Below are positions 7,140 to 18,663 of a stretch of 41,207 nucleotides of DNA, in pieces (positions within the stretch are counted from its first letter, which is position 1; each line of letters opens with the position of its first letter). Both the position numbers and the translations under genes were made by a program. The notes under the pieces were generated by a model. That model was not told the DNA's origin, ran no database searches, and saw only the letters and a program-made list of their open reading frames with translations. The DNA comes from Thiohalobacter sp. (GTDB lineage: Bacteria; Pseudomonadota; Gammaproteobacteria; DSM-19610): positions 1-41,207 of the forward strand of contig JALSRZ010000134.1 of assembly GCA_026984515.1 (NCBI GenBank), given 5' to 3'.

Positions 7140-7206
7140 AGCGAGCCTGCAGGTGAGGACATGGAACCGGTATCGCCCGGTCAAGACCGTCTGCCGCAGG
7201 GATGCG
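7140..7206. repeat. REP-like interspersed repeat, copy 1
   Basis: 67 bp filling the space between the convergent genes trmL and gpsA. The core 7157–7187 matches either arm of the inverted repeat at 16853–16967 in 29 of 31 positions (differences at 7175 and 7184). The preceding 17 bp (7140–7156) match the sequence outside the right arm there. The following 19 bp (CGTCTGCCGCAGGGATGCG) match the sequence inside the left arm. It stops exactly at the gpsA stop codon. The location between two 3' ends is typical of REP elements. Confidence 0.75.
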
Positions 7207-15323: not shown

Positions 15324-16334
15324 TTGAAACTGATTGAAGTTGTCGCGGATGCCGGGCACCTCGATACACTGACCGGTCTGGCGGAGCAGTACGGTGCGCT
15401 CGACTACTGGTACAGCCAGACGGTCGAAGACCAGCGCCGCAGCCTGCGCATGCTGGTGGATGATGCCAAGCGCCAGACAGTGCTCGATGCGCTGCAGAAC
15501 CTGCTGGGTGCCTCCGGCAACGCGCGCATCATCGTTCTGCCGGTAGAGGCGGTGCTGCCCAGGCCGGATCAGGATGCAGTTCCGGACAAAAAGAACGAGA
15601 GCAAGGCAAGCACCAGCACTACGCGCGAAGAACTGTACAACCAGATCGAAAAAGGAGCGCGCCTGGACGGGAATTACCTGATCCTGGTTTTTCTGTCCAC
15701 GGTGGTTGCCGCCATTGGCCTGCTGGAAAACAATGTGGCGGTGATCGTTGGCGCCATGGTGATTGCGCCGCTGCTGGGTCCGAACATTGCGCTGGCATTC
15801 GCAGCGACACTGGGCGATCGTGACCTGCTCCGGGAATCGTTCCAGACCAATCTTGTCGGTGTGGTATTTGCGCTTTTGCTGTCCGTCGTGATTGGCTGGC
15901 TGTGGCCCGTGTTCACTCCCAATGCGGAAATTATCGCGCGCACCGATGTTGGTTTTGACGGGGTTGTGCTGGCGCTGGCCTCCGGTGCAGCCGCCGTTTT
16001 GTCGCTTACCAGTGGTGTAGCCAGTGCGCTGGTGGGCGTTATGGTGGCCGTTGCCCTGCTGCCTCCCGCGGCTACCCTGGGTATGGTGCTTGCCTCCGGG
16101 CAGCATGAAATGGCGGCCGGTGCCGCACTGCTGCTGGCGGTGAACGTGGTTTGTGTGAATCTTTCCGCCAACCTGGTTTTTTTTATCAAGGGCGTCAGGC
16201 CCAGGACCTGGATCGAAAAGCGCAAGGCGAGACAGTCGGCGGTATGGATCGGCCTGTTCTGGGTCATTGCGCTGGCAGTACTGCTGTTCGCTGTGTATGC
16301 GCGCAATTTTGTCCAGGAGCCTGTCGGCCTGTAA
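15324..16334 (+). CDS. DUF389 / TIGR00341 family membrane protein
   Basis: A TTG start at 15324, 8 nt after GAAAGGAAC, gives 336 residues beginning LKLIEVVADAGHLDTL. A cytosolic alpha/beta domain (about 1–80) and a charged linker (about 85–105) precede at least six hydrophobic helices. Conserved stretches are YLILVFLSTVVAAIGLLENNVAVIVGAMVIAPLLGPN (about 114–150) and ASALVGVMVAVALLPPAATLG. The family is widespread and of unknown function. It is the last gene of the gpmI-side run and is followed by a long AT-rich gap. Confidence 0.88.
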   Translation: MKLIEVVADAGHLDTLTGLAEQYGALDYWYSQTVEDQRRSLRMLVDDAKRQTVLDALQNLLGASGNARIIVLPVEAVLPRPDQDAVPDKKNESKASTSTTREELYNQIEKGARLDGNYLILVFLSTVVAAIGLLENNVAVIVGAMVIAPLLGPNIALAFAATLGDRDLLRESFQTNLVGVVFALLLSVVIGWLWPVFTPNAEIIARTDVGFDGVVLALASGAAAVLSLTSGVASALVGVMVAVALLPPAATLGMVLASGQHEMAAGAALLLAVNVVCVNLSANLVFFIKGVRPRTWIEKRKARQSAVWIGLFWVIALAVLLFAVYARNFVQEPVGL

Positions 16335-16400
16335 GGAGGCGATTAATTCGTCGATAATATTTACAGAAAAATTTTAGCGCCGTCTAACCATAAAAACAAT

Positions 16401-16415
16401 ATAACACTATGTTAT
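16401..16415. promoter_or_regulatory. 15-bp palindrome ATAACA-cta-TGTTAT, candidate enhancer site
   Basis: A perfect 6-3-6 inverted repeat centred about 148 bp before the predicted sigma-54 start site. That is a usual distance for an upstream site bound by a bacterial enhancer-binding protein. A second dyad, TTATTG-a-CAATAA, lies at 16459–16471, about 91 bp upstream of the start. The surrounding 16381–16440 has only 12 G/C in 60 bases. The binding protein is unknown. Confidence 0.4.
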
Positions 16416-16458
16416 TTAAAATATATTAATGGATTCTTATGATCCGGCTGTGTCGGTA

Positions 16459-16471
16459 TTATTGACAATAA
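16459..16471. promoter_or_regulatory. 13-bp palindrome TTATTG-a-CAATAA, second candidate regulatory site
   Basis: A perfect dyad with a single central base, 59 bp upstream of the -24 element at 16530. It could be a second activator site, or a site for IHF-like bending of this AT-rich leader. Only the symmetry is seen. Confidence 0.35.
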
Positions 16472-16529
16472 AAAATTCAGCCAATTCCTGTGTTCAGGCA
16501 ACTCATTGATTTATAAGGAAGTGAAAAAC

Positions 16530-16545
16530 AGGCACGCTTGTTGCT
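16530..16545 (+). promoter_or_regulatory. Sigma-54 (RpoN) -24/-12 promoter
   Basis: AGGCACG-CTTG-TTGCT matches the consensus TGGCACG-N4-TTGC(A/T) at all but the first base. The invariant GG (16531–16532) and GC (16543–16544) are separated by exactly 10 bases. Transcription should start near 16556. No protein-coding gene lies downstream on this strand before the terminator at 16739. Confidence 0.7.
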
Positions 16546-16555
16546 CTATGTACTG

Positions 16556-16762
16556 TACCAAGACCGAATAATAAACAAGTTTTGAAACAGTGTTGCGGTA
16601 GATGCTTTTCGAAAACGGTGTTGGAGGAGTTAATTTATAATAAACGTTGACAGGTAGAGAGAACTTCACAGCGTATCGTTACAACAACAAGGCTCACAGG
16701 ACCACAAAAGCTATAATAATTGAAAGAGCCCATTCCGACCCGCCATTTTGGCGGGTTTTTTT
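16556..16762 (+). ncRNA. Putative sigma-54-dependent small RNA (~207 nt)
   Basis: The interval from the predicted sigma-54 start to a strong intrinsic terminator has no credible coding capacity. The longest ATG frame I see is 12 codons (16602–16640, weak ribosome site). The sequence is AT-rich against GC-rich flanks. It contains two AANAANAA stretches (within 16570–16580 and 16682–16690), which in Pseudomonas CrcZ-type RNAs bind Hfq/Crc. It also has a self-complementary TTTTCGAAAA near 16606–16615. It has too few GGA motifs for a CsrB/RsmY-type RNA. Alternatives are an untranslated leader that terminates early, or a very small peptide gene. The existence of a transcript is inferred from the promoter and terminator only. 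Confidence 0.5.
16739..16762 (+). terminator. Rho-independent terminator of the putative small RNA
   Basis: CCCGCCA (16739–16745), loop TTT, TGGCGGG (16749–16755), then seven T to 16762. It lies 404 bp beyond the DUF389 stop, too far to be an ordinary terminator for that gene. Confidence 0.88.
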
Positions 16763-16852
16763 ATGCCGGTCTACACTGCTGTCGCGTTAACCCGCCAACC
16801 ACGTGACCGAAATATAAGCGGCAGATACGTTTTGAGCCAGGTCGGGCAGCCC

Positions 16853-16984
16853 GGACATGGAACCGGTATCACCCGGTCAGGACCGTCTGCCGCAGGGATG
16901 CGGCAGTCGAGCGGCCAGGGATGGCAGGTTCTGCGTGTCCTGACCGGGTGATACCGGTTCCATGTCCTCACCTGCAGGCTCGCT
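16853..16984. repeat. REP/BIME-like inverted repeat, copy 2
   Basis: Two perfect 31-bp arms, 16853–16883 and 16937–16967, in inverted orientation around a 53-bp spacer. Just inside the left arm is a perfect small hairpin CTGCCGCA-ggga-TGCGGCAG (16887–16906). Outside the right arm, 16968–16984 matches the flank of copy 1 at 7140–7156. The element starts 29 bp below the ubiB stop, so it lies in the 3' region of the ubi operon. The double-arm structure resembles a bacterial interspersed mosaic element. The remaining gap bases (16763–16852, 16985–17013) show nothing further. Confidence 0.8.
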
Positions 16985-17013
16985 CCAACGTTAACGGGAC
17001 AGCAGTGGCCGGT

Positions 17014-18663
17014 CTATTCATCGGTCCAGGCATAGACCAGGAAAAAAACAGCCAGCCCGCCCAGCACCCAGCTGAGCATCGGTGCCCCGCCCCACATGGC
17101 CGGGGTATAACCGTCCAGGCCGAAGATGACGGAAGCGCTGATCAACAGTGCGCCGCCGACGATGGCGGCCAGCGAGCGCTGGCTGGAACGGCGCATCTGT
17201 TCCCGCAGTTTTTCCAGCTCACGGGATTCCCACTGGATCCGCAGTTTTCCTTCCGTTGCCTGCTGCAGAGTGCGGTGCACCAGCTGGGGTATCTCAGGCA
17301 GCTGTTCACTCCATTCCGGCAGGCTGCGGCCCATGCGACCAATGAACGCGCGTGCGCCGACCTGCTCGCTGACCCAGCGCTCCAGGAACGGCTTTGCCGT
17401 CTGCCACAGGTCAAGGTCCGGGTACAGCTGGCGCCCCAGGCCTTCGATGTTGAGCAGCGTCTTTTGCAGCAGTACCAGCTGTGGCTGGATTTCCATGTTG
17501 AAGCGGCGTGCGGTCTGGAACAGGCGCAGCAGCAGTTGCCCGAAGGAGATCTCCTTCAACGGGCGTTCGAAGATGGGTTCGCAGACCGAGCGAATGGCAG
17601 ATTCGAATTCATCGATACGCGTGCCTTGCGGGACCCATTCGGATTCGACGTGCAGTTCTGCCACACGGTGGTAATCACGACGAAAAAAGGCCAGGAAGTT
17701 CTCCGCCAGGTAGCGCTGGTCGCCGGGACTCAGGGTGCCCATAATGCCGAAGTCGACCGCCATGTAGCGGCCATCGGCAGAGACAAAGATATTGCCGGGG
17801 TGCATGTCAGCGTGGAAAAAGTTGTGCTGGAATACCTGGGTGAAAAAGATTTCCACGCCGCGTTCGGACAGCGACTTCAGGTCGATACCACTGCGCCGCA
17901 AGGCCTCGATGTCATTGACCGGAACGCCGTAGATGCGTTCCATGGTCATGACGTTGCGCCGGCAATAGGGCCAGTATACTTCCGGCACATACAGCAGGCC
18001 GGAAGCGCTGAAGTTTCTGCGCAGCTGTGAGGCATTACCGGCCTCACGCAACAGGTCCAGTTCCTCGCACAGCGTCTTCTCGAATTCGGCCACCACTTCC
18101 CCCGGGCGCAGGCGACGACCGTCACGCCAGTATCGCTCCGCGAGGCCGGCAATGTAGTGCAACAGGCTCACGTCGCGCGCAATGACTTTCTCCACGCCCG
18201 GTCGCAGGACCTTTACCACGACGTCTTCCCCACTCTTCAGCGTAGCGGCGTGCACCTGTGCGATGGATGCGGAAGCGAGCGGTTGTGCGTCAAAACGGTG
18301 GAACAGTTCACTGACCGGCTGCTGGAAGGCACGCTCGATGATCTGCTGTGCGTGTTCACCGGCAAAAGGCGGCACGCGGTCCTGCAGTTTGGCGAGTTCG
18401 CGGGCAATGTCATCGGGCAGCAGATCCTGGCGGGTGGAAAGGATCTGGCCGAACTTGATGAAAATCGGGCCGAGGTCTTCCAGGCTCCTGCGAATACGGA
18501 CTGCGCGTGGTGTTTTGCGTACGTACCAGTGCCAGGGCGCGAGGTAGCCCAGAAAACGGACGGGTCGGAACAGGTGGGTTGCAAGGACGACTTCGTCCAG
18601 GCCATTACGCACCAGTACCCAGTTGATATGCAGCAGGCGCAGCAGTTGGGCGGGCCGAATCAT
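17014..18663 (-). CDS. ubiB: Ubiquinone biosynthesis accessory kinase-like protein UbiB
   Basis: 549 residues, against 546 in E. coli. Signature features of the UbiB/ABC1/ADCK family are the KFGQ motif (70–73) with [11 protein letters not shown], the nucleotide-loop region [11 protein letters not shown]…[17 protein letters not shown] (about 283–290) and AVDFGIMG (about 300–307). Two C-terminal membrane helices follow (about 497–520 and 525–546). The protein is an unorthodox ATPase needed for coenzyme Q synthesis at the inner membrane. Its ATG overlaps the ubiJ stop by 4 bp. Order ubiE–ubiJ–ubiB is the classical operon. A REP-like element lies downstream. Confidence 0.96.

Follow-up and report, generated by a model that had tools for sequence, protein, structure and literature searches.

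The RNA-1 locus and its distribution

The window analysed here, a 41,207-nucleotide stretch of DNA from a Thiohalobacter sp., contains a gap flanked by a DUF389 gene (15324-16334, + strand) and ubiB (17014-18663, - strand). The GC content is 0.34-0.39 across most of positions 16300-16700, compared with approximately 0.60 in the surroundings, in line with the AT-rich character remarked on in an initial annotation that proposed an orphan sigma-54 promoter driving a non-coding RNA of approximately 207 nt at this position. The -24/-12 promoter is indeed present at 16530-16545 (+ strand; AGGCACGCTTGTTGCT), with the GG at 16531-16532 and the GC at 16543-16544 separated by N10, an arrangement that is retained in all 15 homologues described below, and its position predicts a transcript start at 16556. 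The strong intrinsic terminator that had been noted downstream was located by a terminator scan at 16737-16763 (+ strand), where it comprises GACCCGCCATTTTGGCGGG and a T run, and is the strongest of four terminator-like sites, with 0.4 expected from shuffled sequences. The span from promoter to terminator defines a predicted small RNA of approximately 208 nt (16556-16763, + strand), referred to here as RNA-1, the length of which agrees closely with the original estimate.

With respect to coding capacity, the longest ATG-initiated open reading frame within the window's RNA-1 comprises 12 codons, and none of the 15 homologues revealed a conserved reading frame, however small, since neither frame nor start codon is kept; the view that the interval holds nothing credible to translate is upheld. 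A scan of RNA-1 against Rfam 15 returned no family at gathering score, and only chance matches of terminator level at E values of up to 5. The CrcZ, CrcY, GlmY and GlmZ covariance models, proposed earlier as a check, likewise gave no match, in keeping with the failure of the initial annotation to recognise the RNA. RNA-1 is very probably a discrete non-coding RNA, and the locus looks like a genuine regulatory-RNA gene, previously uncatalogued, of marine sulphur bacteria, namely Thiogranum and its relatives, with a product of approximately 208 nt.

When 56 related genomes were searched at the DNA level, the RNA-1 segment was located in two genera of the same family, the window's own and one other. 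A covariance model of the RNA-1 core detected the RNA in 15 of the 20 genomes of the GTDB family (Thiogranum/'Thiohalobacter' MAGs), with E values below 1e-21. Among the 15 are all genomes of the window's genus with a completeness of 90% or more, some below that level, and G017; the model did not find RNA-1 in three family genomes of 75-82% completeness, or in genus g3 (G018 and G019). The named genomes that carry the locus are those of Thiogranum, 'Thiohalobacter' and further gammaproteobacterial MAGs. The ubiB gene lies 3' of RNA-1 in convergent orientation in all 15 genomes, and the DUF389 gene lies 5' of it in at least eight. Common to the 15 homologues are the promoter, the near-invariant GGNGTTGGAGGAG, an AAC-repeat of the ACAACAACAA type and the terminator, and the spacing between promoter and terminator, on which the initial annotation had staked its reading, is conserved among the relatives. 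A class-wide covariance search of 369 genomes gave only weak matches outside the family, of at most 35 bits, and GTTGGAGGAG, a sigma-54 site and the activator box described below did not occur together in any that were examined. A pattern scan of approximately 85,000 genomes plus viral contigs yielded 12 true RNA-1 loci, all in Thiogranum-like MAGs; the remaining matches, including those to three viral contigs, scored 26 bits or less and were rejected as RNA-1.

Between the RNA-1 terminator and ubiB lies a 234-bp MITE-like insertion (16774-17007), which has terminal inverted repeats (CACTGCTGTC/GACAGCAGTG), a long inverted repeat inside and a 9-bp target duplication (GCCGGTCTA). The near-identical relative G007 has an empty site at this position, and a fragment related to the insertion is present at window position 7157.

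Promoter architecture and the PEP-CTERM-type regulon

The promoter of RNA-1, earlier regarded as an orphan, reads instead as a member of the PEP-CTERM (PrsR-type) class, with the corresponding box, IHF site and spacing, an assignment that the sequence supports well. Haft et al. 2006 (PMC1569441) describe a 17-nt motif ('motif 1') with TTTACA at its end, which lies upstream of PEP-CTERM genes in Proteobacteria and is followed, after a spacer of 62.8 +/- 10.6 nt, by a sigma-54 motif. The phylogenetic profile of the motif is reported there to match those of PrsK, PrsR and PrsT, and the motif is attributed to the PrsK/PrsR two-component system. Additionally, the RpoN dependence of a PEP-CTERM gene has been demonstrated experimentally in Aquincola (PMC9850573).

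In the window, a 17-nt activator box of this type (TGTCGGTATTATTGACA, TGTCGN6TTKACA; 16451-16467, + strand), the predicted PrsR site, was identified by pattern search, comparison with the literature and a survey of downstream genes. It shows one deviation from motif 1 (TTGACA), most relatives having TGTCGN6TTTACA, and is separated from the sigma-54 site by approximately 62 nt. Membership of the regulon was defined as motif 1 ending in TTTACA with a sigma-54 motif 32-92 nt later, and motif, spacer and sigma-54 site are all found at the RNA-1 promoter. Two upstream palindromes had previously been noted at enhancer distance, both of which are present in the window (ATAACACTATGTTAT, 16401-16415; TTATTGACAATAA, 16459-16471), but neither of which is conserved as a palindrome. 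The latter shares sequence with the box, in its 3' half, and it is this non-palindromic box that constitutes the conserved upstream site.

Between the box and the promoter is an IHF-type site (16499-16511, - strand) that matches the consensus perfectly (WATCAANNNNTTR on the minus strand; CAACTCATTGATT). The IHF consensus occurs with no more than one mismatch at 21 of 46 box-promoter sites, compared with 2.5 expected, and is mostly located 18-21 nt before the promoter GG. Alignment of the promoters side by side revealed, by eye, a further inverted repeat upstream, which is degenerate in the window (TATTAATGGATTCTTATG, 16424-16441) and takes the form ATAAG-N6-CTTAT in several relatives. This repeat occurs only in RNA-1 promoters, being absent from the other regulon sites compared, and suggests that a second input, perhaps a second regulator, may act at the RNA-1 promoter.

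The box-spacer-promoter pattern gave 67 matches in 18 family genomes (58 in 16 genomes of the window's genus and nine in G016 and G017), of which a few are chance matches inside genes, compared with eight for a reversed control pattern. Eight out-of-family genomes gave a single match; three genomes were common to both box-promoter pattern scans. The window's own genome has four matches versus three in the control, and so the case for the regulon rests on the family-wide count and on the genes downstream. Some true sites also escape the pattern, that of RNA-1 in G009, which has ATTACA, being one.

The features located 3' of the box-promoter sites are VPLPA/PEP-CTERM proteins, a DUF5658 protein, a protein of approximately 60 amino acids, other secreted proteins and RNA-1. 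On contig C95 of the window's genome (G000), the box-promoter unit precedes two genes with VPLPA/PEP-CTERM-type ends, both of which score below the curated cut-offs, one of them just below; a protein behind such a unit in G017 exceeds the VPLPA-CTERM cut-off. The gene for the DUF5658 protein in the window's genome (L057, contig C116) also stands behind a PrsR-type promoter.

Two of these products are conserved behind promoters of this type. The first is a protein of 162-171 amino acids, encoded in many family genomes (L057, L060, L066, L067, L072, L197 and L198), which has the DUF5658 domain in the G000 copy and is not a PEP-CTERM protein. The second is a conserved protein of approximately 60 amino acids (MNARIEKMINGVPVSANPIFKDG...; L070, L030 and L069).

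PrsT, PrsK, PrsR and an exosortase are encoded on one contig (C155) of the window's genome, PrsK, PrsR and the exosortase scoring over cut-off and PrsT being recognised by eye as a TPR protein beside prsK. Neither PrsR nor PrsK was found in G002, G004, G015 or G017, all four of which retain RNA-1 and the box, and PrsK was not found in G013, which retains RNA-1. Because PEP-CTERM genes with the box occur in G017, in which no exosortase was found either, missing MAG contigs are the simpler reading of the absence of PrsR and PrsK from these four genomes. PrsK and PrsR are also present in genus g3, from which RNA-1 was not recovered. The idea that this genus lacks the box was rejected, since a relaxed pattern applied to its PrsKR regions found a variant, TGTCAN6TTTACA, with a sigma-54 site (CTGC promoter) before a secreted-protein gene, at one site at least; the strict pattern is therefore too strict for g3.

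Judged from its promoter, RNA-1 is in all likelihood a member of the PEP-CTERM-type regulon, and PrsR is probably its activator. It is rather unlikely that a genuine RNA-1 is driven by some other enhancer-binding protein, for example one that is PilR- or NtrC-like. Such a protein could account for the four RNA-1 genomes that have no PrsR over cut-off, yet encode other proteins of this general type, and RNA-1 promoters are set apart from PEP-CTERM promoters by their extra inverted repeat. However, the box, spacing and IHF site are identical in kind to those of PEP-CTERM genes in the same genomes, and the box was tied to PrsR by phylogenetic profile by Haft et al. (PMC1569441). The switch parts common to RNA-1 and PEP-CTERM genes suggest that RNA-1 is part of the extracellular-matrix programme of these bacteria.

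A second box-sigma-54 site, followed by a conserved stretch of approximately 200 nt and a terminator, was found in G009, G011 and G013, and the corresponding RNA is referred to as RNA-2 (loci L062/L042 in G009, L050 in G013, L051 in G011 and L207 in G017). It adjoins a gene whose C-terminus resembles Ffh by eye. A covariance model built from four sequences detected RNA-2 in 14 of the 20 family genomes, the window's genome not being among them, and the promoter unit was confirmed with the strict pattern in six of the 14. RNA-2 has no match in Rfam, is apparently non-coding and is unrelated to RNA-1. There is perhaps an even chance that PEP-CTERM/exosortase control has a non-coding arm, in which PrsK/PrsR would turn on the surface proteins together with two or more unrelated small RNAs, RNA-1 and RNA-2 among them. 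If so, matrix production would be brought into step with other cellular activities at the post-transcriptional level.

Conserved elements of RNA-1 and possible modes of action

The 5' end of RNA-1 carries an element of the CCAA.ACC(G) type (CCAAGACCG; 16558-16566, + strand) that is predicted to pair with GGTGTTGG. The energy of this duplex beats that of shuffled sequences (p about 0.01-0.03) in eight of the 15 homologues and is unsupported in the other seven; the element is a possible lock on the RNA-1 seed. Further downstream is the near-invariant GGTGTTGGAGGAG (16617-16629, + strand), in which 12 of 13 positions are identical in all 15 homologues although the flanks diverge, the sole change being a T-to-A in G010. 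This segment is presumed to be a seed or a protein site. The motif ACAACAACAA (16681-16690, + strand), a candidate Hfq distal-face site, reads AYAAYAAMAA in every homologue.

Regarding structure, hairpin 2 (CGTTG...CAGCG; 16645-16673, + strand) has two-sided changes at three of its five pairs, each in one sequence, and the terminator has compensatory changes at two stem pairs. Hairpin 3, closed by GGCTC/GAGCC (16691-16730, + strand), is lost in G017 and conserved in sequence within the genus, and therefore provides no covariation evidence. RNAalifold alone found no covarying pair in the RNA-1 alignment, and so the structural evidence for RNA-1 is modest; the fold of the window's RNA-1 is slightly more stable than those of shuffled sequences (z -2.0). 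Of the two signatures that the initial annotation looked to in the gap of related genomes, the GG-N10-GC is thus universal among the 15 homologues and covarying stems are represented by some covariation in hairpin 2 and the terminator.

The following chain of events is put forward tentatively. The PrsK kinase would activate the response regulator PrsR, which would bind the box at 16451-16467; IHF would bend the DNA between box and promoter, and sigma-54 polymerase would initiate at 16556. RNA-1 would then bind Hfq via ACAACAACAA and its U tail, and GGUGUUGGAGGAG, which the 5' CCAA.ACC element would mask in part, would pair with C/A-rich sites in mRNAs, thereby coupling matrix-protein production to other genes. 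As a whole, including its mode of action, this scheme of a PrsR/sigma-54-controlled, Hfq-assisted, trans-acting small RNA of the PEP-CTERM/exopolysaccharide regulon has somewhat less than an even prospect of being correct, and the same caution attaches to Hfq-assisted base-pairing taken by itself. That mode of action is favoured on account of a single G/U-rich segment, which is under the strongest constraint and has an AAN repeat and a U-rich terminator 3' of it. Sequence features of the Hfq type in RNA-1 are the AAN/ARN motif and the U-rich terminator tail, and Hfq is encoded in the window's genome. Counting against seed pairing, GGUGUU is for the most part base-paired in the predicted structures.

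Among the matches listed, the perfect seed complement CTCCTCCAACACC occurs only once outside the RNA-1 locus, in G012, and none of them is a conserved perfect target outside the locus. A target survey limited to the exosortase/PrsKR loci gave no convincing target. The most attractive candidate in a real gene, a TCCTCCGACA site just before prsR, was rejected because it falls within the prsK coding sequence, at its end, and lacks conservation, differing in G003, G005, G008, G009, G010 and G011 of the 12 genomes compared.

Two other modes of action, both of which fit less well, are sequestration of CsrA and a CrcZ-like decoy. McaS and CsrB sequester CsrA, and RNA-1 might similarly titrate CsrA/RsmA through its GGA motifs, relieving exopolysaccharide genes of repression. 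The invariant GGAGGAG (GUUGGAGGAG) is consistent with such a role, as is a further GGAGG that G009, G011, G013 and G002 carry within the hairpin 2 loop or close to it. However, the second site is absent from hairpin 2 in the window, G007, G012, G015 and G005, and the number of GGA motifs per RNA-1 ranges from two to nine, rendering this reading unlikely. Less likely still is a titration of Hfq, alone or together with Crc, by A-rich repeats, a notion that accords with sigma-54 control and with the AANAANAA stretches that had been taken to recall Hfq/Crc targets. These AAnAAnAA motifs are mildly enriched, at 1-3 per RNA compared with 0.15-0.74 expected, but only the one at ACAACAACAA is conserved, Rfam provides no match, and the strongest constraint falls on GGTGTTGGAGGAG, for which a decoy has no need; the likeness to CrcZ/Crc perceived earlier is therefore weak. 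Finally, translation of a small peptide from GGAGGAG, a strong Shine-Dalgarno sequence, is highly improbable, there being no conserved ATG, GTG or TTG at a usable distance and no conservation of frame or start.

Comparison with known regulatory systems

RNA-1 resembles other sigma-54 small RNAs. It shares with CrcZ and CrcY of Pseudomonas and Azotobacter a sigma-54 promoter, an A-rich Hfq-type motif and an intrinsic terminator, but differs in having a single conserved A-rich motif, a different core, ubiB as neighbour and a PEP-CTERM-type box, and in its lack of an Rfam match. GlmY and GlmZ are sigma-54-dependent small RNAs of approximately 200 nt that are tied to envelope precursors; RNA-1 resembles them in length and in its predicted sigma-54 dependence, and has no Rfam match to either. 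McaS of E. coli, a biofilm-matrix small RNA with GGA motifs and Hfq, is similar to RNA-1 in its GGA motifs and, as far as these are predicted for RNA-1, in the involvement of Hfq and the tie to the matrix; RNA-1 has no Rfam match to it, and McaS is not known to be sigma-54-dependent.

The closest counterpart of the promoter is the PEP-CTERM/PrsR cis-element, which in the available text of Haft et al. 2006 (PMC1569441) is likewise intergenic and consists of a 17-nt box, a spacer of approximately 62 nt and a sigma-54 motif, in genomes that, like that of the window, encode PrsK, PrsR, PrsT and an exosortase. The box described there ends in TTTACA, that of the window in TTGACA, and the RNA-1 promoter is unlike the published element in driving a terminated unit without a protein downstream. 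A small number of additional sites, lying before genes of other kinds, are also reported in that text, with no mention of an RNA. In environmental Proteobacteria, PEP-CTERM/exosortase systems are linked to the formation of flocs and matrix, and their regulation is little worked out. In the open-access literature searched, no RNA was found to have been placed in this regulation. RNA-1 appears to represent a new family of small RNAs and, judged by that literature, is the first RNA to be linked with the PEP-CTERM promoter system. A conserved small RNA behind a PrsR-type promoter would offer a handle on what the system governs other than surface proteins.

In its logic, RNA-1 is nearest to Qrr1 of Vibrio fischeri, a sigma-54-dependent small RNA under the control of SypG, an enhancer-binding protein linked to aggregation (PMC10162802). 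Both combine a sigma-54 small RNA with an activator linked to matrix or aggregation, the activator being a predicted one in the case of RNA-1, which differs from Qrr1 in its activator, in its host group and in having no Rfam match. RNA-1 would add to the small set of sigma-54 small RNAs under matrix-related activators, of which SypG and Qrr1 provide an example.
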